DNA from: a virus
DNA: 27,206 bases
Direction: 5' to 3' (one strand)
IMG/VR virus record: IMGVR_UViG_3300022198_004556
Coordinates: 1 to 27,206 of that record
Shown here: piece after piece, positions 1-25,281 of the stretch
How the letters are laid out: the number at the start of each line of letters is the position of its first letter
Numbering within the stretch: position 1 is the first letter of the stretch
Notes under the pieces: model-generated
Databases searched by the model: none
Told to the model about the DNA's origin: nothing
Seen by the model: the letters and a program-made list of their open reading frames with translations, nothing else
Position numbers and translations under genes: made by a program

Positions 1-878
1 ATGGCACGTTTCGTACAAAGACATATACTCCAGTAAAAAGAATTGCAAACAGAAACACTACGATTCCAGAAGAGCGCGACCAATTGTCTCTTCAAGATAG
101 CGCTACTGCTGGGCAAATTCTTAACATTGCGATTGACAGCGCTGGCTTGAATTACACAAGCCCTACAATCACAATTAGCGGTAATGGTTCAGGTGCTAGA
201 TTTGTCGCTGATGTTTTTGACAACAAGATCGTCAATGTTCGTTGCGACTCAAATGGCTTTGGTGGTTATCTGCACGGCGAAGGTTATGATTATGCAAAAG
301 TAATCGTGACTGATCCAGGTGGCGGTACAGGCGCTAAGCTAAGAGCAGTTATTTCTCCAAAGAGAGGCATTCATTACGACCCAGTCGATACATTAAAATG
401 TCGAGAACTGATGCTTCAGACAGACTTTATTGGGAACGAAGAGAACACAATCGTTGCGAACAGCACAGAGTTTTATCAAGTCGGCGTAATCAAAGACTTG
501 ACAATTTTCGGTGGCGACTCAGCATTTACAGGTAACACTGGGCAAGCCGCTAAGATTTTCACAATCGGCACAGTCAGTGGTGCTTGGGTAGAGAACGACA
601 CGTTCACTAATACCCTACAGACAGCCACAGCAAAAATTTATTACGTTGATACGAACACGCTATATTATTTCCAAGATGAAGAGACGGGGTTTGAAGAGTT
701 TGCGCTTGGTGACAACATTATCAATGAGCAAGGTGGAACTGCGCAAATTTTGGCTAAAGTAAATCCGGCAGTTGACGCATATTCGGGTGAGATTTTATAC
801 ATAAATACACTTGATAATGCGGTCACAAGAGAAGCCGCTCAAACCGAAGACATTCGAATAGTTATTCAGTTAGGATAA
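1..878 (+). CDS. 8: Baseplate wedge protein gp8, 3' part (5' end outside window)
   Basis: The reading frame is open from base 3 to the TAA at 876-878 (291 residues) and no start codon with a ribosome binding site is visible, so the gene begins upstream of the window. The last 30 residues (GEILYIN ... TEDIRIVIQLG) line up with the C-terminus of T4 gp8 (GEMIYMEN ... TEEINILFTF). Its place, directly before a large baseplate/fibre protein and upstream of genes 13-14-15, fits T4 order. gp8 is a dimeric component of the baseplate wedge. The first visible part is beta-rich, with Gly-rich turns (SGNGSGA, DPGGGTGA) that I do not recall from T4 gp8 and that may be an inserted beta domain. An in-frame TTG at 84 is not a credible start because good coding sequence continues upstream of it. 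Confidence 0.75.
   Translation, partial: GTFRTKTYTPVKRIANRNTTIPEERDQLSLQDSATAGQILNIAIDSAGLNYTSPTITISGNGSGARFVADVFDNKIVNVRCDSNGFGGYLHGEGYDYAKVIVTDPGGGTGAKLRAVISPKRGIHYDPVDTLKCRELMLQTDFIGNEENTIVANSTEFYQVGVIKDLTIFGGDSAFTGNTGQAAKIFTIGTVSGAWVENDTFTNTLQTATAKIYYVDTNTLYYFQDEETGFEEFALGDNIINEQGGTAQILAKVNPAVDAYSGEILYINTLDNAVTREAAQTEDIRIVIQLG
800..807 (+). promoter_or_regulatory. Possible late promoter (CATAAATA)
   Basis: CATAAATA matches the NATAAATA form of the T4-type late promoter, which is read by a gp55-like late sigma factor. It lies inside the 3' end of gene 8, 75 bases upstream of the ATG at 882. It differs from the T4 consensus TATAAATA at the first base, and it also encodes the gp8 residues around Tyr-Ile-Asn, so a chance match is possible. 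Confidence 0.35.
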
Positions 879-881
879 AAC

Positions 882-3800: not shown

Positions 3801-6278
3801 CTTCGCTCTGTAAACCCAAGAATTCGTCAACGCGCACTTATTCAATTGCGTGAAAAGTACGCATCGACAGTAACGACTTCTCCGAGATATGGTAACGGGC
3901 GTTTTGTGTCTCGTGTGGTTCCTTCTGATACGCTTCGTGAAGTTGTTGGTAAGCGTATTATCGATCTAGCGTTGATTCCATGGATTCGTTCTAGAAAGAT
4001 TTACTTCCATGCGAAGGGTCTTAAGCCTAATACGAAGTTTACTCCTTTCTTCGATGGGCAGAAAGTAACAGAATGGTGTCGACAAGAATCTTCGTTCGTT
4101 CAATATTCTGATCGCACAGATGATAACGGAAACAAGTATACGCATCAAGCTATCACTGCGCATCCGAGTGGTTCGTCTGAACTTATTTCGAATGCAAACG
4201 GTGAAATTATTGGATCGTTCTTTGTTCCCAATATTCGCCCATCTTACTACGTAAATCGTGTAAATGCAACTGCTAGACAGAAAGCGACGGGTACAAGATT
4301 TAGATCAGGTATTCGTGAATTCAAGTTGCTTGACATTGATACAAATGACTGGGCGGCGGCAGGAAGTAAAGCCTTTGCGTACTATGTTGCGCAGGGTGCG
4401 ATCTGGAATCACTGGAACAATGTGATTTCAACAAGACCGACTGAGTACTGGTGGCCTTTAGCTAACTGGTCGAATTTCCCACAAGCGTATAATTCTAAAG
4501 AACTTCAGAATTATCTGAATCAGGTTCGTGCCGCTGAAGTTCAGCTTGTCGATCCTAAGCTTGCTGGTAAGTACGGTCCTGGAGCCGCTCCGCTTTCTCT
4601 TGCGGCTCTGAATGGGCTTGACGCTACTGGTCAAATGTCTCAGGTTCTTTCTGACTATATTGATGTGGATCAGAATCAGTTTGCATCGAACATTGTTTCG
4701 ACAATGACTGCGCCTCAGAATCCTCTGGCGCAAACGTTCTACGTTGATAATCAATTTGGTGTGACGCTGACAAGCATTCAGCTATACTTTAGAACAAAAG
4801 ACACTGGAAATCTACCCGTTGCGGTTCATTTGCGGCCCGTGGTAAATGGGCGTCCGTCGCACAATGAAATTGTTCCAGATTCTCACGTGTATCTGAATCC
4901 AAGTCAAGTGACTGCTGTTGGTACGAATCCTACGCTTTCTGTGATTCAAGAAAGACCTACAACATTTACGTTCGAAGAGCCAGTGTTCCTGAAGCCTTGG
5001 ACTCACTATGCAATTGTTGTTACGTCTCAGTCTACTGAATATGAATTGTTCAGCGCTAAGACTCAGGAACCCGTGTTCGGTTCTACGTCTAGAATCGTTA
5101 CAACGCAACCCGCTCCTGGTTCTCTCTTCTTGCCTCAGAACGGTGTGTTCTGGCTTGAAACGAAAGATCAAGATATCATGTACAGACTTAAGAGAGCGAA
5201 GTTTGATCTTGGCGGTGGCAGTTTGATTCTTAAGAATGCTAGACTTCCCGACAAGCTTCTTAAAGAGAATCCGCTTCAGATGTACAGCGGCACGAAGAAA
5301 GTGTATGTTCATCATATGTGTCACGGGCTTGAGCCTGGCGATCTTGCGTATGTTGATAGTGCAGAAGATATTGCAGGCATCACAGCCAACACATGGATCA
5401 ATGGATCACACGTTGTTGACTCTGCTGACGTAAACGGATATACTTTCCGTTACGATTCTGCTGGTGGTTCTGCACCTCTTGCGAATTCTTCTGCTATCGG
5501 TGGCGGCGATAAAGTTCTGTCGCGTCGAAACGCAATCTTTAATGTTGTGAATCCATACATTGAAACAATCGTTCCGAATAATACTTCGATTGACATTTCT
5601 GCTAAATTCACTGAAGGTAAGAACATTTCTAGCACACGTATCAATGCCGCGGGTCGATGGACGCAGGATGCTGAGTACTCGCGTATTACGCTCAAGCAAA
5701 ACGTTGACTTCCAGACACCAAAAGCAATTTACAACTTCGCCGCCCAAGAACTTAATCTCGGTGCAGGGGTTGCTTCAACTTACGTCAAACTAGATTTGAA
5801 GACCGCGAACGATTATGTTTCTCCAGTAATTGATCTACAAAGAGCTTCTTACGTGCTTGTCGGCTACTGTCAGGACAATCCTGATGTGACGCCTCATATC
5901 AATGCTGTTGATGAAACACAACCTACAGGCGGTACGACAGGATCTAAGCATATCACGGCACCCGTGTTCCTTGAGCAAGACGCAGTTGGTATTGAAGCAC
6001 GATCCCTTGTAAATATTCCTGACGCGGCTGATATTGTAATGTACTATCGAACCGCATCTTCTGATGAGAATATATACGAGAAGTACTGGACGCAACAGCC
6101 TCCCGTTGATGGCATTCCATACGACAATAGTCAAACGTATCGTGACGCACAATGGCTTGCTGGTGGAAAAGGTGGAACGCTCAAACCTTTCAACCAAGTT
6201 CAAGTTAAATTTATTCTGAAAGGTGCTGATGCCGCTCCTTCGTTGAGGAATCTGAGACTTAGATATCTGGCGGTATAA
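882..6278 (+). CDS. Giant DUF4815-type baseplate/tail-fibre hub protein (1,798 aa)
   Basis: The start ATG at 882 is preceded by AGGA at 872-875, and the gene begins three bases after the gp8 stop. The N-terminus (residues 5-60, with NNGRALQARELTQLQ) is the typical opening of the DUF4815 family, large virion proteins encoded next to gene 8 in marine T4-like phages. Later landmarks are an FN3-like stretch around residues 540-600; a helical, probably coiled-coil segment near residues 783-815 (MADIAKIEAKLDDLEEF); the motif RSRKIYFHAKGLKPNTKFTP near 1030-1050; and a jelly-roll-like region starting PLAQTFYVDN at residue 1281. The family is seen in virions and probably does what T4 gp10 and neighbouring fibre-attachment proteins do, holding fibres to the baseplate rim. 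That role is inferred from position and family. It is far longer than T4 gp10 (about 600 residues), and no frameshift or truncation is seen. Confidence 0.8.
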   Translation: MATQFTSSTLSGLYNDDYSEADNYYQILFNNGRALQARELTQLQTMIYQELARLGKNIFKEGATVSSGGMAVNAGYEWVKISATNAGGAFADIPVGTVFKNPITNVEARVLEVRPRNGSDFVLDTVYVQYTNAGADTIGSTPTRFGDGEVLYDQSGGGYQLTTEVPNATGQGVKFTVGEGDFFILGHFVHTTEQSLILSPYTTIANATVGFKVVQEVISVNDTTALYDNANGIVNTASPGADRYRIRLQLVTQDQITSDDTFVFLATVENSKIVEELKESDAYNKIQELIAMRTHEESGNYIVNPFVVNIQDAVAGDSSLELVVSPGLAYINGYRVDKTSPTKLIVPRPQETETVENDVIPIVYGNYFISDSNRGLPNLDASSVNLYNGFGATGTILGTARIRAVEEDGANHRVYVFDVAVDSAQSLRNAKSVGTGGTDVFNLVREADGAKLYGTTDNDLLFPTSRPRPESFADVVLTKQIHEGSLVADGSGVITLQTLASGQAYTDTSLWIVASADSSARAHTVGTPTNSGRDVQVSGLVAGKTYEVLSYVQKTATRKAKTLTTATATLAKQTDTVNDVNYYEFAVPDIYEVDSARANVTGGINMLPSLLLDDGQRDNYYAKGRLIMNAADSAPPNLYVKYRYFARGAGGDFYDATSYGNVPVAYRDIPNHTLKDGTVVNLRNYLDFRPDETAFGTAASIFDLPRNGDNITADVSYYLPRADKLLLTQEGEIQLLLGQQAANPQYKQAPDNALEIYKILLNANTLDENDVQVTPIEHKRYTMADIAKIEAKLDDLEEFTTLSLLELEQKLNAALDSDGNERVESGSQVDDFGDQTSADTNNDDYAASIDPESKLIRPQVDEDNIRLVIDNTLSSNILKKGDNVYINYDSEEWAYQSVASRSIKINPFGLVDNVGVIKLSPTTDEWKESKEDAEKAVAGSARLDKKQAFLWNNWMWNWFGRSLEDIDVSRFSELRSVNPRIRQRALIQLREKYASTVTTSPRYGNGRFVSRVVPSDTLREVVGKRIIDLALIPWIRSRKIYFHAKGLKPNTKFTPFFDGQKVTEWCRQESSFVQYSDRTDDNGNKYTHQAITAHPSGSSELISNANGEIIGSFFVPNIRPSYYVNRVNATARQKATGTRFRSGIREFKLLDIDTNDWAAAGSKAFAYYVAQGAIWNHWNNVISTRPTEYWWPLANWSNFPQAYNSKELQNYLNQVRAAEVQLVDPKLAGKYGPGAAPLSLAALNGLDATGQMSQVLSDYIDVDQNQFASNIVSTMTAPQNPLAQTFYVDNQFGVTLTSIQLYFRTKDTGNLPVAVHLRPVVNGRPSHNEIVPDSHVYLNPSQVTAVGTNPTLSVIQERPTTFTFEEPVFLKPWTHYAIVVTSQSTEYELFSAKTQEPVFGSTSRIVTTQPAPGSLFLPQNGVFWLETKDQDIMYRLKRAKFDLGGGSLILKNARLPDKLLKENPLQMYSGTKKVYVHHMCHGLEPGDLAYVDSAEDIAGITANTWINGSHVVDSADVNGYTFRYDSAGGSAPLANSSAIGGGDKVLSRRNAIFNVVNPYIETIVPNNTSIDISAKFTEGKNISSTRINAAGRWTQDAEYSRITLKQNVDFQTPKAIYNFAAQELNLGAGVASTYVKLDLKTANDYVSPVIDLQRASYVLVGYCQDNPDVTPHINAVDETQPTGGTTGSKHITAPVFLEQDAVGIEARSLVNIPDAADIVMYYRTASSDENIYEKYWTQQPPVDGIPYDNSQTYRDAQWLAGGKGGTLKPFNQVQVKFILKGADAAPSLRNLRLRYLAV

Positions 6279-6511
6279 TGAGCAAATATGTGCCGGTGAA
6301 AGGCTACTCTGGCTTAGTTCGTGATACAGAAACTAATGCATTAATCAATGTAAATAGTTCTGAAATCGAACAAGCCAGAGAGCGTAAGCGTCTCAAGCTC
6401 CAGAAAAAAGAAGAAGAGCAGACCCTTAAAATCAGAGTGGAATCGATTGAGAATGACTTAACAGAAATCAAAAGCTTATTAAAAGCCTTGCTTGAAAATT
6501 CTTATAAATAA
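6278..6511 (+). CDS. Small coiled-coil protein (77 aa), function unknown
   Basis: The ATG shares its A with the TAA stop of the preceding gene (TAATG at 6276-6280), which suggests translational coupling; no strong separate ribosome binding site is visible. The N-terminal half resembles the short opening YVPVKGYSGLVRDTETNAL seen in small proteins of marine T4-like phages, in which the phrase about a free or attached 'true' peptide is followed by IINVN-like residues. Residues 28-75 form a charged heptad-like helix (EQARERKRLKLQKKEEEQ, then IESIENDLTEIKSLLKALLE), so a coiled-coil oligomer is likely. It could be a virion accessory or chaperone for the neighbouring giant proteins; this is inference from position only. 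A late promoter sequence overlaps its last codons. Confidence 0.7.
   Translation: MSKYVPVKGYSGLVRDTETNALINVNSSEIEQARERKRLKLQKKEEEQTLKIRVESIENDLTEIKSLLKALLENSYK
6503..6510 (+). promoter_or_regulatory. T4-type late promoter TATAAATA
   Basis: A perfect TATAAATA overlaps the final codons (Tyr-Lys-stop) of the small coiled-coil gene and lies 34 bases upstream of the ATG of the 3,237-residue repeat protein. T4-like phages use this single -10-like element for late transcription by host RNA polymerase with gp55 and gp33. It gives the repeat protein its own late transcript start. Confidence 0.8.
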
Positions 6512-6544
6512 GACATAATCGCTTTTTTGGTTGTCGAGAAATTA

Positions 6545-9500
6545 ATGTCATTACGTCCTCTTAAACATTTTGGTGCAGGCGCTTTTAAAGAGCTTCTTAC
6601 TTCTGAAGAAGACTACTTGGCTTATCAGGCTGGTTATCATCTTGGGCAGATGACAACCGATGATTTGTCTGCACTCTCAATCAACGATCAAGGTACCCTT
6701 GTCGGTATCTATGAGGACACTTTCTATACTTCTGGCATTGGTTCAATTCCTGGCGAGACCATCGCAAGAACATTCGAAGTAAACCATCTTTCTGATATCG
6801 AAAGTTCGATTCATACAACGACTTTCACTGAAGGCTATATTCCTCTGCCTTCGACAGTCTATGTTGGCGATACACTTCAAATTACCATTGCTGGCTCTGC
6901 CGCTAGCTCTGGTGCAGGCTTTGAAGAAATAGAATATCAGATTGGTCTTACGGGTTCTGCTCAGTATAGCATCACAAGCGTTACCTCGACTCCTACTCCT
7001 ACGAACACAACTGGTCTGCAAGCCACGTGGGAAGATTATCAAAATGGCTCGTTGTCTGGTTCTTATCAGACAGTGTTTTCTATTCAGGTAACAAACACGG
7101 GTATTCTTAACTTTACCGTCAACGCTACTTCTACTGATCTTCAAAACGCTACGCCTAGCGCCTTTGATAACATTCAGTTCAACTCTGTACGCGTCGAGCC
7201 TCAGCAAAAGCCAAACACTGCTGGTGCAATCTACGAACTATACCAAAACGATGCAAACGTTTCTTCGCTTCAGACTTCGCCTCTAAAGAGAAATCCTTTC
7301 TACTGGAATCGGGCCGCAAACCCTCCAGGGCTGAAAGAAATGAGCGACGCTGAAATTGATATCGTTTGTGAAAGACTTCTTAAAAAGATTTTTGCAAACG
7401 ATCTTCCTGGAACGTTTAGACTGTCGTCAGCATCTCCTGGTCCGGATTGGTCAGAGTTTCTCCAAGACGTTTTTGTTGACACACGTGGTGACGGAACGCG
7501 TCTCGGCTATTCTATCTGGATCAAAGTTCAAGGCATCAAGCCTACTCGCGTAAATCCTCTTTCTCCTCTTAGAGTCAATAATGAGTTTGGTGGTATTCGT
7601 GAGCTAAGCGAGCCAGAAATGCAGTTCACTTTCGGCGAAAGAATGAAGAAAGTGATCATGGATACTGGTATCGGTACGTATGAACTACGTGCTTCTGCTG
7701 ATGGTCCTCCTACAGCACCAGGTACGTGGGAAGCAAGAGGTAGTGCAGTTGACACCATTCTTACCTACGAAGAAGAAAAGACCTATATTGCCACAGACAG
7801 CTATGAGTTAAACTATCTCACAGATTACGAAGCTACGTACACGGGTGATTACTCCGGCGACTATGTACCCACTTATGAAAGTGATTACATTGGTGATTAT
7901 GTGCCCGACTATGCTGGTGATTACAGCGGCGACTACGAAGGTACGTATTCTGGCACGTATAGTGGTGACTATACGCAGAACTATCTGGGCGATTATCTCA
8001 CAGAATACGTTCAGAATTACGAAGGTGAATTCACAGGCGATTATGTCCCGAACTACGAGGGTGTGGACATTCTTGAAGCCTATACAAGCGATTACGAAGC
8101 GGCTGACGCTGAAGAGCCTTACGTTGTTCCTTACGACGAAGCCGGCTATACTGGTAACTATATCAGCGATTACACTGGTGACTTCACAGAAGTTTATTCT
8201 GGCAACTTCACTGATACCTACATTTCTGACGTATACACTGGTAATTTCCTAGTTGATTACACTGGTGATTACGAGAGTGGTTACACTGGTAACTTCCTTG
8301 AGAACTATGTTGATGACCAATACACTGGTAACTTCTTAGAAGATTACATCGGTGACTTCCTTGAGCAATACACCGGTGACTTCTTGCAGAATTACGTTGA
8401 TAATTCTTATATCGGCGAATTCACTGCTATCTACACTGGTGATTTTATTGAAACATATTCTGGTGATTTTCTTCAGAACTATGTTGATGATCAATACACT
8501 GGTAACTACACTGACGAATACACTGGCGATTTTCTTGTAACATACAGCGGTGACTTCTTACAGAATTACGTTGACGACCAATACACTGGTAACTTCACTG
8601 AAGTTTATACTGGTGATTTCCTTGAGCAATACACTGGCAATTTTACTTCAGAATATGCTCAAGACGTTTATATTGGTAATTACGTTAGCGATTACACTGG
8701 TGACTTTTTAACACAATACACAGGAAACTTCTTAGAGAACTATGTACAAGCGCAGTACATTGGCAATTACTCAGAAGTTTATTCTGGTGATTTTATTGAA
8801 ACATATTCTGGTGACTTTACTCAGAACTATGTTGATGATCAATACACTGGTAACTTCCTTGATAATTACACTGGCGATTACGTTTCAGACTATACAGGTG
8901 ACTTCACTCAAAACTATGTTGATGCTCAATACACTGGTAACTTCACCGTAATTTACACCGGTGATTTTCTTGCGCAGTATACCGGGGACTTTGTTTCTGA
9001 GTATGCTCAAGAAACTTACATTGGCAACTATGTTAGTGACTACACTGGCGATTTCCTCACGAATTATACAGGCAATTTCCTTGAGAACTATGTTGACGAC
9101 CAATACACTGGTAACTTCTTAGAAATTTATTCTGGTGATTTTCTAACCACGTATTCTGGTGATTTTCTTCAGAACTATGTGCAGGCGCTTTATACCGGTA
9201 ACTTCCTCCAGAATTACACCGGAGATTACGTTGCAAATTATTCTGGTGATTTTCTTCAGAACTATGTACAAGCACAGTACACTGGTAACTTTATATCTAG
9301 TTACACAGGAGATTTTACTGCGCTTTACACTGGTGACTACGAATCTCTGTACGTTCAAACAAACTACACCGGTAACTATGTCAGCGATTACACTGGCGAC
9401 TTCTTATCACAGTACACCGGCGACTTTTTAGAGAATTACGTTGATGATCAATACACTGGCAACTTTACAGAAAATTATGTCGATGATACTTACACTGGTA

Positions 9501-12500
9501 ACTTCATAGTTAATTACACTGGTGATTACGAGTCAAGTTATGCAACCACATATGCAGTTTTGTATGTGCAAGATCAGTACACAGGCGATTACGCTTCTGA
9601 TTACACCGGTGATTTTGTCGTAACGTATTCTGGTGATTTTACAGAAAATTATGTCGATGATACTTACACTGGTAACTTCATAGTTAATTACACTGGTGAC
9701 TACGTTTCTTTATACGCTACAACTTATGCTGTCAACTACGTTCAGGCTCAATATACTGGTGATTACGCTTCTGATTACACAGGTGATTTTGTTGTAACTT
9801 ACGTAGGTGACTTTACAGAAAATTATGTCGATGATACTTACACTGGTAATTTCCTTCAGAATTATACTGGTGATTTTATCGTATCATATAGCGGTGACTT
9901 TACTCAAAATTACGTTCAGGCTCAGTACACTGGTAATTACATTTCTGTGTACACCGGGGATTTCTTAACAACTTATACTGGTGACTTTACTCAAAATTAC
10001 GTTGATAATTCTTACACCGGTAACTTCTTGCAGACATACACCGGTGACTTTATTGTTTCATACAGTGGAGACTTCTTACAGAATTACGTACAAGCACAGT
10101 ACACCGGTAACTACATTTCTGCATACACGGGCGATTACGTCGAGACTTACACTGGTGATTTTACAACAAACTACATTCAAACGACCTATGCAGGTAACTT
10201 CTTAGAGACGTATATCGGTGACTTTATCGCCAGCTATACAACAGTGTATAACGTAACATATGCGCAAGCAAACTATACCGGTAACTATATTTCGGATTAC
10301 AGTGGCGACTTTACTGAAGCGTACACCGGTAACTTTACTGTAAACTACGTACAGATTGTTTACGGTGGTGATTTCTTACAAACATATACTGGCGATTTTG
10401 TAAATCAGTATACTGGTAATTTCTTAGCTACTTATGCGCAAGCTCAGTATACTGGTAACTACATTTCTGTTTACACCGGCGATTTTTTAGCAACTTACAC
10501 TGGTGACTATGAAAGCATCTATGAGCAGTTGACATACACTGGTAATTATCTCAGCGATTACACTGGCGACTTCATTGTAAATTATGTTGGTAACTATCAG
10601 TCTGTTTATGCGCAAGCACAATATACGGGTGACTTCTTAGCTACGTACTCTGGTGATTTTATCGCCACATTCCAAGGGCAGTACGAAGGTAACTTTACTG
10701 CTCAGTATGAAGGCAATTTCACACAAAACTATACTGGTAACTTCATTCAAGGGTTTGAAGGGCAATACGAAGGTAACTTCACAGCGTCTTACACTGGCGA
10801 TTTCTTGCAAGACTATATCGTCAACGTGTATACTGGTGACTTCCTTGCGTCTTATACTGGTGATTTTTTACAGACATTCCAAGGGCAGTATGTAGGTAAC
10901 TTCTTAACGACCTACACAGGTAACTTCACAGCTACGTATTCTGGCGACTTCCTAGCTACGTTCCAAGGGCAGTATATTTCTGACTATGCGTCTAACTATA
11001 CTGGAACGTTTCTTAACCTGTATATACAAACAACGTATAGTGGCGATTTCTTGGCTACGTACGTTGGTGACTTCTTAACGACCTATACAGGTAACTACGT
11101 AAGTCTTTACGTTCAAGCAGATTATACTGGTAACTTTGCGGCAACATACTCGGGCGATTTCCTTGCTTCTTATCAAGGTAACTTCTTGACAACATACACC
11201 CAAGCAGATTATACTGGTAACTTTACCGCTGATTATGTGCGCGACACATACACTGGTAACTTTGTTGTTACTTACAGCGGTGACTTCCTTGCATCGTACA
11301 CTGGTGATTTTGTCACCAACTATGCACAGAATACGTACACCGGGGACTTTTTAGCTTCTTATACTGGTGATTTTAACCTCGCGTACGTTGGTAATTATCA
11401 ATCAGTTTATGCGCAAGCGAACTACACTGGTAACTTCCTTGCTACGTACGTGCAAGCAGATTATACTGGTAACTTTGTCGCCACTTATGCTGGTGACTTC
11501 CTTGCTACGTTCCAGGGTCAGTATGTAGGTGACTTCATTCAAGGCTACGTTGGATCGTTTACCGCAAACTATACCGGTGACTTCTTAGGTACTTTCGAAG
11601 GGCAATACGTAGGCGACTTCTTAGCGAACTATGATGGTGACTTCATCGCAAACTACTCTGGTGATTTTCTAGCTACATTCCAGGGGCAGTACACCGGTGA
11701 TTTCAACGCCAGCTATGTAGGTAATTTTAACGCAACTTATACTGGCGACTTCTTAGCTACGTTCCAAGGGCAATACGTCGGCGACTTTGTATCAACTTAT
11801 ACTGGTGACTTCTTGGCTACTGTTCAAGAGGGTTATACAGGTTCGTACTTAGGTGTGTATGAAGGAGCATATGTTGGAGCGGCTACGTACGTAGGCAATT
11901 ACGTAGGTCCTGGAGCATGGACAGCATGGCAGTATTCACTTAACGTTTATCATTGGGTAAGATCAACCTCGTCAAACTCGTTCTCTATTCGTTGGAATAG
12001 CGTTACCATCACAGTTCAGTTTGGTAATCCCAACCTTACGCAATTCTCAATTGGTGGTTATGATTATCAGCGTGGTGCGTTTAGAACCGGTGGACTTGGT
12101 AACAGTTTCTATGAAGTTCGAAGAAGATTAACTTCATCAACTTATCTTGGAAGCTACGCCGCTACCGGAACATACTTGGGCGGAATTACTGAAAGCATTC
12201 AGCAAGGTTACACTGGTAGTTACGTAGGTAATTTTTTCCAAGTGTATCTAGGGAACTTCCTTGCTACCTTCGTTAGTGCTGACTATACTGGTAACTTCCT
12301 TGCGTCTTATACAAGTTCGTTTGCGGCAACCTATACTTCTACATTTACTGCTACTTATATACAAGCAGATTACACTGGTAACTTTATTGCCAACTATGCA
12401 GGCAACTACGTATCTAGATACACAGGTAACTTCCTTTCTACTTACGTTCAAGCTTCTTACACAGGTAACTTCCTTGCGACCTATGTAGGTAACTACGATG

Positions 12501-15500
12501 GTAGCTATGCAGGCAACTTCTTGCAGACATTCGTTCGCGCAGATTACACTGGTAACTATGTGTCGGACTATGTCGGTGACTTCGTGGCTGTGTTCCAAGG
12601 GCAGTACGTTGGTGACTTCTTGGCGACCTTTGAAGGGCAGTATATTGGCGATTTCCTTCAAAGCTACACCTCTGCATTTGTGGCAAGCTATACAGGTAAC
12701 TTCTTAGCTACCTTTGAAGGGCAGTATCTAGGTAACTTCCTTGCGGCTTACACAGGCAACTATATTTCGAACTATGCAGGCGACTTCTTAGCATCGTATA
12801 CTGGAAACTACATTGGTGACTTCTTGGCGACGTTCCAAGGGCAGTATGTTGGTGACTTCCTTACTTCGTATACAGGTAACTACATTTCGAACTATGTGTC
12901 TGACTTCTTGGCGACGTTCCAGGGGCAGTATGTTTCTGACTTCCTTGCACAATATACAGGTAACTTCCTTACTTCGTACACTGGAAACTTCTTGTCGAAC
13001 TTTGAAGGTCAGTATACAGGTAACTTCGAAACAACTTATACTGGTAACTATGATTCGCTGTATGTTCAAGCCGATTATACTGGTAACTTCTTACAGCAAT
13101 ATACTGGCGACTTCTTAGCCAGCTATACGGGCGACTTTACAGTAGTGTACGCTCAAGCAGATTACACTGGTAACTATCAGTCAGTTTACACTGGTAACTT
13201 TGCTGTTGCGTACACAGGAAACTATCTCGGTAACTTCTTGCAGACCTACACAGGTGACTATGTTAGTCTGTATGCTGATCAAGTCTACGGTGGTGACTTC
13301 TTGAATGTCTACACTGGTGACTTCTTGAATCTGTACACCGGTGATTACATTTCGACCTATGCGCAAGCAGATTACTCAGGTAACTACATTTCAGATTACG
13401 TCGGTAACTTCTTATCTACCTTCGAAGGTCAATACGTTGGTGATTTCTTGGAGCAGTACAGCGGTAACTTTACTGCTGTTTACACTGGTGACTTCCTTGA
13501 ATCGTTTGCAGGGCAGTACACGGGCAACTTCACACAATCTTACACTGGTAACTTTGTTCAGCCATATTCTGGAGATTTCCTTGCGACATTTGAAGGTCAG
13601 TACGTCGGCGACTTCGTTCTGAATTATGAAGGCAACTTCTTAGCGCAATACACTGGTAACTTCGTCGCAAACTTCGAAGGTCAGTATACAGGCGACTTCT
13701 TGGAAATTTACACTGGTAACTTTATCGAGAATTATGCTGGTGACTTTGTACAGATTTTCCAAGGGCAATACGTAGGTACTTACATTACTGTGTACGTAGG
13801 AAACTTCCTTGAGCAATACACTGGCGACTTTGTGTCAAACTTTGAAGGGCAATACACTGGTAACTTCCTTGCACAGTACACTGGTAACTATGTTTCAAAC
13901 TATTCTGGTGACTTCACTCAAGTATTTGAAGGTCAGTACACTGGTAACTTTATTGTTGAGTACACGGGCAACTTCACTGTTCCTTACACTGGCGATTTCC
14001 TTGCTTCATTCGAAGGTCAGTATACTGGTAACTATCTCAGCGACTACACTGGTAATTTTGTTGTAAGTTACTCTGGCGATTTCACTCAAGTATTCGAAGG
14101 GCAGTACACAGGCAACTTTGTTGTCGCATACACTGGCAACTTTGTTGAAACGTATGTCGGTGATTTCTTAGCCTCATTCGAAGGTCAGTACACTGGCAAT
14201 TTCTTGCAGAATTACACTGGTAACTTCCTTACCACTTACACTGGTGAATTCTTACAGACATTTGAAGGGCAATACACCGGCGACTACGCTACAGGATACA
14301 CTGGTAACTACATTGAAAATTACGTTGGCGATTTCCTTGCTTCATTCGAAGGTCAGTATACTGGTAACTATCTCAGCGACTACACTGGTAACTTCCTTAC
14401 AACATACACTGGCGAATTCTTGCAGACATTTGAAGGGCAGTATACTGGTGACTACGCTACAGGATATACTGGCAACTTCCTTGAGACATACACTGGCGAC
14501 TTCCTTGACACGTTCGAAGGGCAGTATACTGGTGACTTCTTGCAAAACTTTGAAGGTCAATACACCGGGAACTTCCTCGATACTTTCACAGGCAATTTCC
14601 TTACAACGTACGCTGGTGATTTCCTTGCGAGCTTCGAAGGTCAATACATTGGTAACTTCACTCAAACTTATCAAGGCAACTTTACCGTTGTTTACAGTGG
14701 TGACTTCCTTTCTACCTTCGAAGGTCAGTACACTGGCAACTTCTTAGAGATTTACACTGGTAATTACACTGAAACTTACGTTGGCGACTTTGTAACAAAC
14801 TTCGAAGGGCAGTACACTGGCAACTTCTTGCAAAATTACACTGGTAACTTCATTGAGAATTACACTGGCGACTTCCTTCAAAACTTCGAAGGTCAGTACA
14901 CCGGCGACTTCTTAGACACTTATACTGGTAACTTCCTTGAAACTTATTCGGGTGATTTCGAACAAGGATTTATCGGGCTGTACACTGGTGATTTCCAAGA
15001 AACTTATACTGGTAATTACACTGACGAATACACTGGTGACTTCACTCAGAACTTTGAAGGGCAATATACTGGTAACTTCCTTGAAATTTACACAGGCAAT
15101 TATATTGAAAATTACGTTGGCGACTTCACCGAAGTTTTTGAAGGTCAATATACTGGTAACTTCTTAGAAAACTATTCTGGCAACTTCATTGCTGAGTACA
15201 CCGGTGATTTCATTCAAAACTTCGAAGGTCAGTACACAGGCGATTTCTTAGAGACTTACGAAGGCAACTTCCTTGAAACTTACTCTGGTGATTTTGAGCA
15301 AGGGTTTATCGGGCTATACACCGGCGACTTCTTAGACACTTATACTGGTAACTACACTGACGAATACACTGGCGATTTCACGCAAGTATTTGAAGGGCAA
15401 TATACCGGTAACTTCATTGAGAACTATACCGGCAACTTCATTCAGCCTTATACTGGCGACTTCACTGAAGTCTTTGAAGGTCAGTATACTGGCAATTTCC

Positions 15501-16258
15501 TTGAGAACTACTCTGGTAACTTCACAGAAGAATATACAGGCGATTTTGCTCAAGCGTTCGAAGGTCAATACACGGGCAATTTCTTAGAGACCTACGAAGG
15601 CAATTTCCTTGAGTCTTATACTGGTGATTTCCTTGACAACTTCGAAGGTCAGTACACAGGTGACTTCTTAGAAGAGTACGTTGGTAACTTCTTAGAGACT
15701 TACACCGGTGACTTTACTGAAACGTTCATCGGCGCTTACACTGGTGACTACGAGTCTGATTACGAAGGCAACTTCCTCGAGACGTACGCAGGCGATTTTC
15801 TAGAAGAATATATACAGACATATTCTGGCGATTATGTCGGTAACTACACGCCTACATTCTCAGATACATATGAAGGTAACTACACACCAGATTATGAAGG
15901 TGATGCTTATACAGGTGATTACACTTCAGACTATATCGAATCGCAGTACGAAACAAATTATGAAGTTGATTACGAAGAAAGTACGTATCTTTCTGATTAT
16001 GAGACTGATTATGAAGGTACCGTTGATGTTGAGAACTACGTTTCTGGATTCCAAGGGGCTGCGGCTGAAGAAACGTATACCGGGGACTTCCAAGGACCTG
16101 CTGTCATTGAGCAGTACAGCGTTCCTTATGACGGCATTAACTATGAAACAAATTATAATGTTGTCGTGGACGTTAACACCTCTTACTTGGATGAGGCTAA
16201 ACTGACTTCAACGCCGATTATTATTGAAACATACACACTTTATGTTCGCGTTGCATAA
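6545..16258 (+). CDS. Giant octapeptide-repeat virion/fibre protein (3,237 aa)
   Basis: I chose ATG 6545; an in-frame TTG at 6527 is possible but has no ribosome binding site and would disturb the promoter leader. The ribosome site here is weak (GAG at 6536-6538). Residues 1-415 are a non-repeat head containing two related modules (LKEMSDAEI near 265, IRELSEPEM near 350) that resemble N-termini of structural proteins in T4-like cyanophages. Residues about 417-1760 and 1888-3190 are tandem Y-x-G-[DN]-[FY]-x3 octets in units of three plus a linker. Residues 1788-1887 are a Trp/Arg-containing inserted domain. The tail (3190-3237) is acidic and then hydrophobic. There is no Lys from 413 to 3218, and no Cys or Met that I can see after the N-terminal head. 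No catalytic motif is seen. Probably a long, acidic fibre or beta-solenoid on the tail; localisation is inferred from its place between baseplate and fibre genes. MORN-like similarity is superficial. Confidence 0.85.
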   Translation: MSLRPLKHFGAGAFKELLTSEEDYLAYQAGYHLGQMTTDDLSALSINDQGTLVGIYEDTFYTSGIGSIPGETIARTFEVNHLSDIESSIHTTTFTEGYIPLPSTVYVGDTLQITIAGSAASSGAGFEEIEYQIGLTGSAQYSITSVTSTPTPTNTTGLQATWEDYQNGSLSGSYQTVFSIQVTNTGILNFTVNATSTDLQNATPSAFDNIQFNSVRVEPQQKPNTAGAIYELYQNDANVSSLQTSPLKRNPFYWNRAANPPGLKEMSDAEIDIVCERLLKKIFANDLPGTFRLSSASPGPDWSEFLQDVFVDTRGDGTRLGYSIWIKVQGIKPTRVNPLSPLRVNNEFGGIRELSEPEMQFTFGERMKKVIMDTGIGTYELRASADGPPTAPGTWEARGSAVDTILTYEEEKTYIATDSYELNYLTDYEATYTGDYSGDYVPTYESDYIGDYVPDYAGDYSGDYEGTYSGTYSGDYTQNYLGDYLTEYVQNYEGEFTGDYVPNYEGVDILEAYTSDYEAADAEEPYVVPYDEAGYTGNYISDYTGDFTEVYSGNFTDTYISDVYTGNFLVDYTGDYESGYTGNFLENYVDDQYTGNFLEDYIGDFLEQYTGDFLQNYVDNSYIGEFTAIYTGDFIETYSGDFLQNYVDDQYTGNYTDEYTGDFLVTYSGDFLQNYVDDQYTGNFTEVYTGDFLEQYTGNFTSEYAQDVYIGNYVSDYTGDFLTQYTGNFLENYVQAQYIGNYSEVYSGDFIETYSGDFTQNYVDDQYTGNFLDNYTGDYVSDYTGDFTQNYVDAQYTGNFTVIYTGDFLAQYTGDFVSEYAQETYIGNYVSDYTGDFLTNYTGNFLENYVDDQYTGNFLEIYSGDFLTTYSGDFLQNYVQALYTGNFLQNYTGDYVANYSGDFLQNYVQAQYTGNFISSYTGDFTALYTGDYESLYVQTNYTGNYVSDYTGDFLSQYTGDFLENYVDDQYTGNFTENYVDDTYTGNFIVNYTGDYESSYATTYAVLYVQDQYTGDYASDYTGDFVVTYSGDFTENYVDDTYTGNFIVNYTGDYVSLYATTYAVNYVQAQYTGDYASDYTGDFVVTYVGDFTENYVDDTYTGNFLQNYTGDFIVSYSGDFTQNYVQAQYTGNYISVYTGDFLTTYTGDFTQNYVDNSYTGNFLQTYTGDFIVSYSGDFLQNYVQAQYTGNYISAYTGDYVETYTGDFTTNYIQTTYAGNFLETYIGDFIASYTTVYNVTYAQANYTGNYISDYSGDFTEAYTGNFTVNYVQIVYGGDFLQTYTGDFVNQYTGNFLATYAQAQYTGNYISVYTGDFLATYTGDYESIYEQLTYTGNYLSDYTGDFIVNYVGNYQSVYAQAQYTGDFLATYSGDFIATFQGQYEGNFTAQYEGNFTQNYTGNFIQGFEGQYEGNFTASYTGDFLQDYIVNVYTGDFLASYTGDFLQTFQGQYVGNFLTTYTGNFTATYSGDFLATFQGQYISDYASNYTGTFLNLYIQTTYSGDFLATYVGDFLTTYTGNYVSLYVQADYTGNFAATYSGDFLASYQGNFLTTYTQADYTGNFTADYVRDTYTGNFVVTYSGDFLASYTGDFVTNYAQNTYTGDFLASYTGDFNLAYVGNYQSVYAQANYTGNFLATYVQADYTGNFVATYAGDFLATFQGQYVGDFIQGYVGSFTANYTGDFLGTFEGQYVGDFLANYDGDFIANYSGDFLATFQGQYTGDFNASYVGNFNATYTGDFLATFQGQYVGDFVSTYTGDFLATVQEGYTGSYLGVYEGAYVGAATYVGNYVGPGAWTAWQYSLNVYHWVRSTSSNSFSIRWNSVTITVQFGNPNLTQFSIGGYDYQRGAFRTGGLGNSFYEVRRRLTSSTYLGSYAATGTYLGGITESIQQGYTGSYVGNFFQVYLGNFLATFVSADYTGNFLASYTSSFAATYTSTFTATYIQADYTGNFIANYAGNYVSRYTGNFLSTYVQASYTGNFLATYVGNYDGSYAGNFLQTFVRADYTGNYVSDYVGDFVAVFQGQYVGDFLATFEGQYIGDFLQSYTSAFVASYTGNFLATFEGQYLGNFLAAYTGNYISNYAGDFLASYTGNYIGDFLATFQGQYVGDFLTSYTGNYISNYVSDFLATFQGQYVSDFLAQYTGNFLTSYTGNFLSNFEGQYTGNFETTYTGNYDSLYVQADYTGNFLQQYTGDFLASYTGDFTVVYAQADYTGNYQSVYTGNFAVAYTGNYLGNFLQTYTGDYVSLYADQVYGGDFLNVYTGDFLNLYTGDYISTYAQADYSGNYISDYVGNFLSTFEGQYVGDFLEQYSGNFTAVYTGDFLESFAGQYTGNFTQSYTGNFVQPYSGDFLATFEGQYVGDFVLNYEGNFLAQYTGNFVANFEGQYTGDFLEIYTGNFIENYAGDFVQIFQGQYVGTYITVYVGNFLEQYTGDFVSNFEGQYTGNFLAQYTGNYVSNYSGDFTQVFEGQYTGNFIVEYTGNFTVPYTGDFLASFEGQYTGNYLSDYTGNFVVSYSGDFTQVFEGQYTGNFVVAYTGNFVETYVGDFLASFEGQYTGNFLQNYTGNFLTTYTGEFLQTFEGQYTGDYATGYTGNYIENYVGDFLASFEGQYTGNYLSDYTGNFLTTYTGEFLQTFEGQYTGDYATGYTGNFLETYTGDFLDTFEGQYTGDFLQNFEGQYTGNFLDTFTGNFLTTYAGDFLASFEGQYIGNFTQTYQGNFTVVYSGDFLSTFEGQYTGNFLEIYTGNYTETYVGDFVTNFEGQYTGNFLQNYTGNFIENYTGDFLQNFEGQYTGDFLDTYTGNFLETYSGDFEQGFIGLYTGDFQETYTGNYTDEYTGDFTQNFEGQYTGNFLEIYTGNYIENYVGDFTEVFEGQYTGNFLENYSGNFIAEYTGDFIQNFEGQYTGDFLETYEGNFLETYSGDFEQGFIGLYTGDFLDTYTGNYTDEYTGDFTQVFEGQYTGNFIENYTGNFIQPYTGDFTEVFEGQYTGNFLENYSGNFTEEYTGDFAQAFEGQYTGNFLETYEGNFLESYTGDFLDNFEGQYTGDFLEEYVGNFLETYTGDFTETFIGAYTGDYESDYEGNFLETYAGDFLEEYIQTYSGDYVGNYTPTFSDTYEGNYTPDYEGDAYTGDYTSDYIESQYETNYEVDYEESTYLSDYETDYEGTVDVENYVSGFQGAAAEETYTGDFQGPAVIEQYSVPYDGINYETNYNVVVDVNTSYLDEAKLTSTPIIIETYTLYVRVA
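7795..11826 (+). repeat. Repeat block 1: octapeptide array, mainly 29-residue units
   Basis: This coding repeat opens with a Tyr-rich edge (YTGDY, YSGDY, YVPTY; 7795-8160) and then becomes regular: three octets Y-x-G-[DN]-[FY]-x3 followed by a five-residue linker of the YVDDQ or YVQAQ type. Linker tyrosines fall at 8306, 8393, 8480 and so on to 9437, which is 13 consecutive intervals of exactly 87 bases. At 9437-9476 one unit is shortened to 13 residues, losing exactly two octets. From about 10660 the linker changes to FQGQ and spacing becomes looser. Synonymous codons vary freely (tac/tat, ggt/ggc, gac/gat), so the protein pattern is better kept than the DNA. Confidence 0.9.
9464..9811 (+). 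repeat. Tandem 174-base duplication inside repeat block 1
   Basis: Copies 9464-9637 and 9638-9811 encode two 58-residue stretches (two 29-residue units each) that differ at only a few residues, and the opening of a third copy starts at 9812. About 60 bases around FTENYVDDT and the following octets are almost identical in DNA as well, unlike the diverged surrounding units. Both copies carry the same aberrant octet (YATTYAV) that lacks the Gly-Asp core. This looks like a recent duplication of two units in register. Confidence 0.85.
11906..12205 (+). other. Non-repeat inserted domain (residues 1788-1887 of the repeat protein)
   Basis: About 100 residues without the octapeptide pattern interrupt the array. 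This is the only part between the N-terminal head and the C-terminus with tryptophan (GAWTAWQ, YHWVR, IRWN), and it holds most of the arginines of the region, including RRR near its end. It is Ser/Thr/Asn rich and predicted beta-type by eye. On both sides lie similar transition sequences (GYTGSYLG before, GYTGSYVG after), as if a small globular module were presented from a loop of the fibre. I do not recognise a family. A receptor-binding or trimerisation knob is a guess from its place. Confidence 0.7.
12206..16130 (+). repeat. Repeat block 2: octapeptide array, mainly 28-residue units
   Basis: After the inserted domain the array resumes, at first loosely (YVQAD and FQGQ linkers), then as strict 28-residue units: three octets plus a four-residue FEGQ linker. 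From the linker at 13421 to that at 15641 there are 27 intervals; 26 are 28 residues and one, near 14512-14558, is 12 residues (one octet plus linker), which together account exactly for the 2,220 bases. Two linkers are FIGL and one is FAGQ without change of spacing. In these units the second octet nearly always has Asn (YxGN[FY]) and the third nearly always Asp (YxGDF). The end (15800-16130) turns Tyr-rich and acidic, like the start of block 1. Confidence 0.9.
14885..15560 (+). repeat. 336-base segmental duplication within block 2
   Basis: The rare linker FIGL, preceded by YSGDFEQG and followed within two octets by YTGNYTDE, occurs with its Phe codon at 14969 and again at 15305. The distance is 336 bases, exactly four 28-residue units, and similarity between the copies continues for several units on either side. 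DNA differs mostly at third positions, so this duplication is older than the one at 9464-9811. Confidence 0.8.
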
Positions 16259-16273
16259 ACTATGGAGTAATTT

Positions 16274-16753
16274 ATGAAGTATGAATATCTAGATAATGCA
16301 TATTGGGAAGCTGATGATAGGTCCATCGTCAAGTGCATTAGAATCACAACACTTGACGAGGGTCCTGCAAATAAAAAGAAAAAAGATGTAATGCAGTTTC
16401 ACAAGATCCGCCCTGACGGATCCGAGTGCCCCCATTACAAAGAGGTCGTTTCTAAGGTCGGTATTCCTAAAATCGATCAAAACACTGCTGAGCGTAAAGA
16501 AAGAAAAGAGCGCGAAGCAAAAGAAAAACGTGCCATGCACGAACAGCAAAAGAAAACTGCTGAGCTTGAGCAACTTTTCAATCTAAAACTCCAAGCCTTT
16601 GAAATTGACGAGATTAAAAACTCCGGAGATCGTGCGCTTCGCTCAAAACTTCGGCGAGCTAAAAACGTTGTTGAAATGAATGCAGTCGCATCTATTCTGA
16701 TTGCAAAAGAATTGGGAATGTTTGGAGAAAAAGAGAATGAGTCAACCGTCTAA
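16274..16753 (+). CDS. Charged helical protein (159 aa), function unknown
   Basis: The start ATG at 16274 has a good GGAG at 16264-16267. The N-terminal 70 residues look like a small mixed domain (KYEYLDNAYWEADDRS, then a Lys-run and MQFHKIRPDGSECP). Residues 75-115 are very rich in Lys, Glu and Arg (AERKERKEREAKEKR) and are probably one long helix or coiled coil. The C-terminal 50 residues are a helical segment ending near LIAKELGMFGEKE. There is no signal peptide, membrane segment or catalytic motif. It overlaps the next gene by 17 bases, so the two are probably co-translated. It may be a virion or assembly protein linked to the neighbouring giant gene; I do not recognise a named family. 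Confidence 0.75.
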   Translation: MKYEYLDNAYWEADDRSIVKCIRITTLDEGPANKKKKDVMQFHKIRPDGSECPHYKEVVSKVGIPKIDQNTAERKERKEREAKEKRAMHEQQKKTAELEQLFNLKLQAFEIDEIKNSGDRALRSKLRRAKNVVEMNAVASILIAKELGMFGEKENESTV

Positions 16754-17471
16754 AGGATACGTAATTGTTGCATCGCGAAGAAGTTTTTTCTATGTGTCCG
16801 CACTCAATTTGATGGAATCTATTCGCGATTTTTATCCTGATGCCAACATCTGTCTAGTCTGTGAAGAAAAATTTCTTGATGATCGAGGAAGAAAACTCGC
16901 AAACGAAATAATTTTTTGCAACGATCACAAGCGAGCCAAGCTTTGGGGAATGGCAAAGGCGCCGTGGGATATCACGTTTTACATTGATGCAGATACTGAA
17001 TGCGAACATGAGGATATCGAACATGTCTTTGATGAACTTGGTGACTACGATGTTCTATTCACTGGCTTGCCCGAAGAGCGTTCATATTGCTACGCTGAAC
17101 TGAAATTCCCTGGTGGGCAATTTGAACTGTGCGGTGCTGTTTGTTTGTACGACATGCGTAATCCACTAGTACGTGAGTTTATGGATGACTGGTACGATCT
17201 TACCGTGCGTCAGTACGCAGGAACGTGGTGGCCTTTAAAAGAAGATGGTAGTGAAGACACTGATACGTATCCTGCAACACTCAAGCGTTGGGATCAATTC
17301 TCTCTGTGGTGGCTTGTTAACAAAGAGCCAAAATACAAAGACTTGAAAGTAGGCATTTTCAAAGACGACGCGAGATGGAACTTTTTTTCGCGCTATAAAT
17401 ATCAGCACAACGAAAAGCCTGTGGTGATTCGCCACTATTCTGCTTCTGAAGCGAAGCACATGGAGTTTTAA
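16737..17471 (+). CDS. Putative GT-A-type glycosyltransferase (244 aa)
   Basis: I chose the ATG at 16737 because GGAG lies 9 bases upstream (16724-16727) and the protein then starts MSQPSKGYVIVASRRSFF, a beta strand as expected for a nucleotide-sugar-binding fold; the frame is open a little further upstream within the preceding gene. Residues 79-86 (ITFYIDAD) place an Asp-Ala-Asp (D84-x-D86) motif at the end of a hydrophobic strand, as in GT-A enzymes that bind a divalent metal and UDP- or GDP-sugar. Downstream, GGQFELCGAVCLYD resembles the acceptor-side region of the fold. The donor and acceptor cannot be read from the sequence. Because it sits among fibre genes and abuts an oxygenase-like gene, it may decorate a virion protein or a host glycan; this is inference. 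Confidence 0.65.
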   Translation: MSQPSKGYVIVASRRSFFYVSALNLMESIRDFYPDANICLVCEEKFLDDRGRKLANEIIFCNDHKRAKLWGMAKAPWDITFYIDADTECEHEDIEHVFDELGDYDVLFTGLPEERSYCYAELKFPGGQFELCGAVCLYDMRNPLVREFMDDWYDLTVRQYAGTWWPLKEDGSEDTDTYPATLKRWDQFSLWWLVNKEPKYKDLKVGIFKDDARWNFFSRYKYQHNEKPVVIRHYSASEAKHMEF

Positions 17472-18146
17472 ATGAGAGATATTCCTTTAAATGATTTTGC
17501 ACTTGACATTTTAAATGAATCATTATGGTTTGTCAAAGACGAAAACTATAAAGCCGTTGTTTGTAATAAGCAAGATAAGCACAACAAGAAAGATGCTGAC
17601 TACTACACCGGTGAAGAATATTTCAAGCGAATCAAAGCCATGGGGCAAGAGCATAATGGATTTCCAGAAATAGTAGTTGCTCATTCTTTTGGCATCGGGC
17701 AACTGCATTTTGCGAAAGAAAGAACTGTCACTGAAAAGATTCCACAGGTGTCTTCACAGCAAGAGGCTTTTCTGAGCAAGATTCAAACGACTTTTAATTT
17801 AAAAAGAAATGCACTGTTTAGCATTTATCCGCCAGGGGGTTATATTTCTTGGCATAACAATGCAAACGCTTCCGCTTTTAATTTTATTTTCACGTGGAGC
17901 GAAACGGGAGACGGGTATTGGCAGCATTGGGATAATGCTAAAAAAGAAATGGTGACAATACCCGATGTAAAAGGATGGCAGTGTAAAGCAGGATATTTCG
18001 GAGCGTATGAAGATCCTGCAGAAAAATTAGTCTATCACACAGCAAGAACCAATGACTCTTTACGAATGACTGTTGCATTCGTGCTTGATCGATCTGAAAT
18101 GTCTTCTGGCATTCAAGATTGGATTATTGAAGACATTCACGCCTAA
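17472..18146 (+). CDS. 2-oxoglutarate/Fe(II)-dependent oxygenase-like protein (224 aa)
   Basis: The ATG follows the stop of the glycosyltransferase gene with no gap, and GGAG at 17462-17465 serves as ribosome site. The core looks like a double-stranded beta-helix: SIYPPGGYISWHNNANA (His128), FIFTWSETGDGYW, then GWQCKAGYFGAY and YHTARTNDSLRMTVAF, with His189 as likely distal metal ligand and Arg198 in an R-x-T motif as in 2-oxoglutarate binding. The usual H-x-D metal motif is H-N-N here (Asn130 in place of Asp), so the metal site is altered or the real acidic ligand lies elsewhere. Such oxygenases hydroxylate amino acids, lipids or nucleic-acid bases; the substrate is unknown. A protein-hydroxylation step before glycosylation by the upstream gene is an attractive inference. 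Confidence 0.6.
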   Translation: MRDIPLNDFALDILNESLWFVKDENYKAVVCNKQDKHNKKDADYYTGEEYFKRIKAMGQEHNGFPEIVVAHSFGIGQLHFAKERTVTEKIPQVSSQQEAFLSKIQTTFNLKRNALFSIYPPGGYISWHNNANASAFNFIFTWSETGDGYWQHWDNAKKEMVTIPDVKGWQCKAGYFGAYEDPAEKLVYHTARTNDSLRMTVAFVLDRSEMSSGIQDWIIEDIHA

Positions 18147-18191: not shown

Positions 18192-18545
18192 ATGGCTAGA
18201 TATGAAGAATTAACTATCGATCAAGGAACAGATGTATCTCTGGACCTGTATCTTACAAATGTCGATGGTTCACCAAAAGATTTATCAGGTTTTTCGGCTG
18301 CGGCTAAAATGAGTACGCGGTACGATGTTGATAGTTCTGAAAAAATTTCGTTTGATGCTTATGTCACTGTTCCTCCAACTAACGGTATAGTCAATCTATC
18401 GCTAGCGAATGCTGTTACAAATGCGCTAAATACAAGAAGAAGATACGTGTATGACGTTGAAATTTCTTATGTTGACAGCGATCAGAACACTATCGTAGAA
18501 AGAATTCTAGAAGGACTCATTACCGTAACTCCTTCAGTAACATGA
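18192..18545 (+). CDS. Small beta-rich virion protein (117 aa), BppU-N-like
   Basis: The start ATG at 18192 follows a late promoter. The pattern LTIDQGTDVSLDLYLTNVDG, followed by LSGFSAAAKMS, a polar central part, and VYDVEISYVDSD...RILEGLITVTPSVT, is that of a single beta-sandwich domain resembling the N-terminal domain of phage baseplate upper proteins (BppU family) and similar small proteins in marine T4-like phages. Full length matches one domain, so it is probably a connector or cap for a fibre protein. It is followed after seven bases by a fibre gene. Confidence 0.6.
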   Translation: MARYEELTIDQGTDVSLDLYLTNVDGSPKDLSGFSAAAKMSTRYDVDSSEKISFDAYVTVPPTNGIVNLSLANAVTNALNTRRRYVYDVEISYVDSDQNTIVERILEGLITVTPSVT

Positions 18546-25280: not shown

Positions 25281-25281
25281 A

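Follow-up and report, generated by a model that had tools for sequence, protein, structure and literature searches.

An entire IMG/VR virus record of 27,206 nucleotides (IMGVR_UViG_3300022198_004556, the window of this analysis) carries a gene for a 3,237-amino-acid protein, most of which is an array of tyrosine-rich octets. With roughly even confidence, we read this giant gene as encoding the shaft of a very long fiber on a T4-like marine phage, in which a solenoid rod is anchored by its N-terminal domain and modified by the products of neighboring genes. The rod is probably a beta-solenoid and is probably enzymatically modified. Judged from gene order alone, the giant protein would belong to the baseplate or tail of the virion. 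The gene lies within the baseplate-fiber-neck module of T4-like tail genes, in the order gp6, DUF4815 protein, giant gene, downstream cassette, and tail fiber gene, followed by gp13-, gp14-, and gp15-type genes. Genes placed in this order are:

3 to 878, gp6-type baseplate wedge gene
882 to 6278, gene for a DUF4815 protein, 1,798 aa
6545 to 16258, + strand, giant fiber-like gene, 3,237 aa, from ATG at 6545 to stop (open reading frame and repeat parsing)
19752 to 22928, tail fiber gene, 1,058 aa, after five smaller genes 3' of the giant gene

Repeat parsing places the array at approximately aa 432 to 3190, interrupted by a nonrepeat insert of about 110 aa. The parts of the giant gene are:

6545 to 7795, + strand, conserved N-terminal domain (aa 1 to 417), putative anchor
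7838 to 11887, + strand, array part 1 (aa 432 to 1781), mostly 29-aa units (repeat parsing)
8234 to 9451, + strand, 14 consecutive 29-aa units (repeat parsing)
9578 to 10621, + strand, 12 consecutive 29-aa units with strong two-unit alternation (repeat parsing)
11888 to 12220, + strand, nonrepeat insert (aa 1782 to 1892), putative knob, GGYDYQRGAF ... YEVRRR
12221 to 16114, + strand, array part 2 (aa 1893 to 3190), its C-terminal end mostly 28-aa units (repeat parsing)
13433 to 14524, + strand, 13 consecutive 28-aa units (repeat parsing)
14525 to 14560, + strand, single 12-aa step, an odd 36 bases (repeat parsing)
14561 to 15820, + strand, 15 consecutive 28-aa units, including the AlphaFold2 (AF2)-modeled aa 2729 to 2952 (14729 to 15400)
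16226 to 16255, + strand, conserved C-terminal decapeptide ETYTLYVRVA, identical to the last residue in phage C48C1

The protein contains 251 strict YxG[DN][FY] octets, 250 of them within the array segment, whereas composition-preserving shuffles averaged 1.9 and never exceeded 7. The octet array recognized in a preliminary description of the DNA letters is therefore real, and the interval arithmetic given there was exact, with 13 intervals of 87 bases from 8306 to 9437, and 26 units of 84 bases plus one of 36 (the 12-aa step at 14525 to 14560) from 13421 to 15641. That description missed the nonrepeat domain at aa 1782 to 1892, however, and part of the array is irregular, where linkers follow one or two octets, octets are degenerate, and 4-aa steps occur.

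Strict octets are spaced by 8 (146 times), 12 (42 times), or 13 (40 times) residues. Every regular unit has, on average, exactly seven aromatic residues, which recur every 4 residues with a slip of +1 in 29-aa units. When the array was parsed by its linker pieces, 63 of 81 intervals held exactly three octets (35 of 28 aa and 28 of 29 aa), nine held one or two, and the remainder were two-unit gaps or irregular. The first half of the array contains 80 short steps and 44 long ones. Two consecutive short steps filled 35 of 45 gaps there, compared to approximately 15% expected from random order. The array is of low complexity, with almost no Lys, Arg, Cys, or Met, and each unit carries some 3 to 5 acidic residues. 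Its matches to Pfam families (tRNA_Me_trans_M, Bflower_3, and DUF3334) and to a PHROG exonuclease (phrog_14198) were rejected as noise from repeat composition.

The three-step register is under selection, because its anchors are invariant or nearly so (Tyr in 156 of 156 octets and Gly in 154 of 156) despite mixed synonymous codons, and because the second corner is N in 26 of 26 28-aa units and D in 26 of 26 29-aa units counted. Unit-to-unit identity is approximately 60% and is maximal between units two or four positions apart rather than between neighbors, with even lags exceeding odd lags by 0.058 (permutation standard deviation, 0.010). Array growth by duplication of two- or four-unit blocks fits this even-lag excess. 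Across the four regular blocks, every raised lag was even, at two or four units, while lags of one or three were never raised; in two of the four blocks only lag 4 was raised. An assembly artifact was ruled out because an independent contig (L004) had 19 mismatches in an ungapped comparison with window positions 1 to 9566 and because several relatives have identical or nearly identical arrays on separate contigs. Together, the shuffles, selection pattern, and independent assemblies also exclude chance or a low-complexity artifact as the source of the array.

A first search with profiles of the N-terminal domain found 48 IMG/VR stretches encoding relatives, and a later one found at least 177. 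The sole relative among INPHARED phages is in C48C1 (OQ984149, Kyanoviridae), where it is annotated as hypothetical, and literature searches on the motif and on giant Tyr-rich fibers returned nothing relevant. The family, which lies outside Pfam and PHROGs and has one unnamed GenBank entry, is undescribed. Complete proteins have lengths of 490 (L097), 1,319, 2,078 to 2,080, 3,146, 3,237, 3,347, 3,463, and 3,509 aa, and two others (L066 and L069) pass 4,023 aa before any stop is reached. The gene after that of the 490-aa member, the shortest complete one, encodes 834 aa and also matches the family N-terminal domain, so that this locus (L097, 9965 to 13941) holds tandem paralogues. In L005 (near 12031 to 12085), L046, L052, and L056, the reading frame of the giant gene is broken by a frameshift in or before the array, through either decay of the gene or errors in sequencing the repeats.

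Both ends of the protein are conserved among relatives, while the length and motif of the array vary. For example, L072 and L071 share 92% of the N-terminal domain and a fraction of 0.17 of array 4-mers (the truncation of L071 explains part of this difference), and L040 and L044 share 65% of the domain and 0.03 of array 4-mers. As judged by such comparisons, arrays change far faster than N-terminal domains. The three-octet rule proposed in the preliminary description recurs with unrelated motifs: L040 and L041 have five 29-aa units of the form FTSTSSEA/FISTSSEA/FTSTSSFE/YVGQP, and L044 has seven 30-aa units of the form YTQTYEGPF/YTQAYEGPT/FTRTSSVP/YVET. Three-segment intervals accounted for 66 of 97 in L048 and 44 of 63 in L049. 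Other relatives have 12-aa or 10-aa steps with no clear triplet period, which weakens a single-coil rule for the whole family. The photosystem gene psbA, sought as a host clue, was not found in the records of 11 relatives, leaving a cyanobacterial host without support. The 32-kb contig of one relative (L056) was binned with Thiotrichaceae bacterium UBA7357, but misbinning of phage contigs is common, so this is a weak host hint.

The relative in C48C1 (CDS0201, a 3,347-aa "hypothetical protein") has a homologous N-terminal domain (36% identity over 155 aa), the same four-residue Tyr/Phe period, inserted domains, and an identical C-terminal ETYTLYVRVA. It is followed by the same downstream genes, with the glycosyltransferase-like and oxygenase-like genes at 25257 to 26689 of its locus (L001). 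It differs in stepping by 12 aa (YSRTRVSTYDGT) and 8 aa (YSRNFAGN) without the 28/29-aa rule and in having six or more inserts, compared with one in the window. The C48C1 protein (L001, 14671 to 24714) also contains a stretch of about 65 aa that is directly duplicated (aa ~2008 to 2092 and following), which is either real or an assembly effect.

At the N terminus, a second AF2 run (N-terminal domain plus array start, 24 sequences) gave a good model of the domain, consisting of three strand-strand-helix modules (near residues 6 to 34, 252 to 284, and 338 to 374) with an Ig-like or cupredoxin-like beta-sandwich (~51 to 234) inserted after the first. The domain had no match in Pfam or PHROGs, and profiles of the domain, array, glycosyltransferase-like protein, and oxygenase-like protein found nothing useful among PDB sequences. 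Fold matches of the domain to laccases, cupredoxins, and ICP were rejected as evidence of an enzyme and read as generic Ig-like sandwich similarity. The insert at aa 1782 to 1892 had no match in Pfam. It has counterparts in the middle of the array in L013, L017, L048, and C48C1, and the motif GGYxYxRGxF is common to the window, L017, L048, and C48C1. Most full-length members terminate in E[TIA][YWF]TL[YW][VCA]RxA, a motif seen nowhere else in the family loci examined. In three relatives (L081, 10001 to 14609; L083, 10001 to 14586; L086, 10001 to 14589), the giant gene is two adjacent genes split near the insert, the second of which starts with MADF, continues the array, and ends in ETWTLYVR[AI]A, an arrangement reminiscent of fibers made in two halves.

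Directly 3' of the giant gene is a cassette of three genes, followed by a fiber assembly-like gene:

16274 to 16753, + strand, 159-aa conserved protein, assembly factor-like by position only
16737 to 17471, + strand, GT-A-like glycosyltransferase, invariant YxDAD ... HED (alignment; Pfam Glycos_transf_2 sub-threshold)
17472 to 18146, + strand, 2OG-Fe(II)-oxygenase-like protein, invariant PPGG/ISWHNNAN ... YH ... R (alignment; phrog_81)
18192 to 18545, + strand, L-shaped tail fiber assembly-like protein (phrog_3304/phrog_1084)

Neighbors were counted at 16 distinct 3' ends, with denominators limited to ends having enough sequence. The 159-aa gene was next in 15 of 16 (the sixteenth contig stops 746 bases on), the glycosyltransferase-like gene was downstream in 15 of 15, the oxygenase-like gene was downstream in 13 of 13, and the fiber assembly-like gene was within the distance set in 11 of 12. 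The two enzyme identities are putative, resting on motifs and sub-threshold matches. The YxDAD sequence (a DxD motif) is invariant in 14 glycosyltransferase-like homologs, 9 of which match Pfam Glycos_transf_2 (best E value, 0.0013) and one of which matches Glyco_transf_8, with no match above a curated family cutoff and a sub-threshold one for the window member. Two of 14 oxygenase-like homologs weakly match phrog_81, the PHROG family of 2OG-Fe(II) oxygenases (best E value, 8e-4). This family has an invariant H-N-N ... H ... R, in which Asn replaces the metal-binding carboxylate expected in H-x-D/E, so these proteins need not be active oxygenases. Because the genes are strictly adjacent, both enzyme-like proteins may act on the giant protein.

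Eight 28-aa units (aa 2729 to 2952) were modeled with AF2, using seven other in-register stretches as the alignment. The model is confident (mean pLDDT, 92.1, with a range of 89.7 to 92.1 over the five models; pTM, 0.78) and repeats every 28 residues. A confident model lacking such a period, which the preliminary description named as refuting its proposal that each unit is one triangular solenoid turn of three octet faces plus a corner linker, was thus not obtained. DSSP analysis of the model assigned strands of 6, 6, and 10 residues per unit, with breaks at G-[DN]. Thus, the three corners were recovered, but the short FEGQ piece lies inside the 10-residue strand, lengthening the third face instead of forming a corner linker. 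The earlier figures of about 90 turns and 40 nm would hold if the fold is a solenoid. Foldseek found no PDB match at an E value of 0.001 (best E value, 0.069; probability, 0.30), and a search of BFVD gave nothing closer (best E value, 0.0019; TM score, 0.19). The comparison suggested in the preliminary description therefore pointed to the predicted class without significance: PDB neighbors were almost entirely single-chain parallel beta-solenoids, at TM scores of 0.1 to 0.3. Among these, the RTX antifreeze protein 3p4g, CsgA 8c50, and SufB/SufD 5awg share stacked short strands and tight corners with the model but differ in coil length and lack sequence similarity, and their matches are insignificant (E value of 0.07 or worse). 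The RTX calcium beta-roll nonapeptide GGxGxDxUx is absent from the array, which has a single Gly and steps of 8, 12, or 13 aa.

This model, together with the triplet rule in unrelated motifs, tips our judgment slightly in favor of a single-chain beta-solenoid. The model calls for caution, as AF2 is biased toward solenoids for repeats; unlike other predictors, it assigns high confidence to unrealistic solenoids built from perfect random repeats (PMC11795689). The authors of that study note that the effect may be confined to near-perfect repeats; units here are about 60% identical. A strict solenoid would be dislocated where short pieces follow one or two octets, and the triplet rule fails in approximately 10 to 30% of linker intervals. 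Stacking Asp columns without compensation from Lys or Arg and the disorder modeled at the irregular array start also count against it. Those difficulties ease if the array is instead a homotrimeric three-start beta-helix of the T4 gp5C type, each octet being one strand with neighbors from three chains (i against i+8), since odd extra steps are tolerated and Asp columns spread out with no Asp-on-Asp stacking. T4 gp5C octads carry Gly at position a, Asn/Asp at b, Val at g, and a polar residue at h (PMC3004832), so the V-x-G-[DN] of gp5C corresponds to Y-T-G-[DN] in the array, in the same eight-residue step and also in a myovirus tail module. In addition, part of the array is matched by phrog_430, a tail-lysozyme profile of PHROG (E value, 9e-17), and a fiber assembly-like gene is close by. 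We regard a trimer as a serious alternative, though unlikely, with a calculated rod length of about 160 nm (~330 octets of 4.8 angstroms each). Position g is Tyr (or Phe) in regular units and never Val, and gp5C has about 11 VxGxxxxx repeats, unlike the approximately 300 octets here, which are made discontinuous by a 4- to 5-aa piece after every third octet. A trimer leaves that piece unexplained, even though the rule recurs with unrelated motifs. The sequence profile found no gp5-like chain in the PDB, and gp5C is a hub needle, whereas the giant gene is in the baseplate-fiber region. AF2 placed the beta-sheet within one chain, but monomer runs are biased and cannot probe trimers.

Two further arrangements are less probable. 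Gly-Asn and Gly-Asp favor type II' turns, and an antiparallel zigzag would use each octet as a strand and each G-[DN] as a two-residue type II' hairpin turn within a long single-layer sheet. With three strands per unit, the direction would invert at each unit, matching the even/odd alternation. This arrangement is very improbable: strands in the model run through some G-N corners (DSSP, model residues 173 to 186 and 201 to 214), unlike two-residue hairpins, the nearest structures are parallel solenoids, and the two blocks with lag 4 alone raised are a better fit to block duplication. A flexible, largely disordered, glycosylated mucin-like spacer with no rigid rod is improbable to a somewhat lesser degree. 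It would suit the low complexity, the near absence of Lys, Arg, Cys, and Met, the glycosyltransferase-like neighbor, and a motif and length unconstrained among relatives. The solenoid model is weak proof against it given the AF2 bias, and the irregular array start was predicted to be disordered (pLDDT of ~30). However, aromatic residues placed strictly every 4 residues, Gly corners that never vary, and corners selected for N or D are difficult to account for in an unfolded chain, and such aromatic-rich sequence is atypical of disordered linkers.

Other phage structural proteins resemble the giant protein in part. T4-like long tail fibers (gp34 to gp37) are likewise long, with rod and knobs, as in the family, some members of which are split at the knob into adjacent genes, but known tail fiber families in Pfam and PHROG gave no sequence match. 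In Synechococcus phage S-RIM2, the gene just before the neck protein gene encodes a structural protein (AOO05742) with glycine-rich four-residue repeats (VTGN) resembling the array. It was rejected as a homolog, being similar in repeats only, with Val/Leu in place of Tyr/Phe and no N-terminal domain or C-terminal homology. S-RIM2 also encodes a 6,378-aa hypothetical protein directly after gp6 (L055, 5144 to 24280; record positions 55143 to 74279), unrelated in the search used but a further giant at that position.

Under the solenoid reading, the N-terminal domain would anchor the giant protein to the baseplate or tail, and each 28- to 29-aa unit would form one roughly triangular coil, with faces of 6, 6, and 10 residues meeting at right-angled G-[DN] corners. 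Tyr and Phe would stack as ladders along a stiff beta-rod, the insert would form a knob along the shaft, and the C-terminal peptide may cap the rod or be read by an assembly factor. The array would grow and shrink through duplication of two- or four-unit blocks, together with motif replacement, so that rod length and chemistry could shift quickly with both ends held. The glycosyltransferase-like and oxygenase-like proteins would most likely modify the rod, and may harden or decorate it, possibly by hydroxylation and then glycosylation of its many Asn, Asp, Thr, and Ser residues. A broader and more tentative proposal, which we think rather unlikely, is that such fixed-end, rewritable beta-rod fibers are widespread and decorated by their own hydroxylase and glycosyltransferase, yielding a sugar-coated solenoid that changes quickly under pressure from hosts or defenses.

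If this reading is right, marine phages carry an undescribed fiber family in which evolution has rebuilt a single rod fold from many motifs, providing a natural experiment on the sequence rules needed by a long beta-rod. The conserved enzyme-like neighbors make posttranslational modification by phages of their own fibers directly testable, and the 2OG oxygenases frequently described in marine phages may thereby gain one concrete function.
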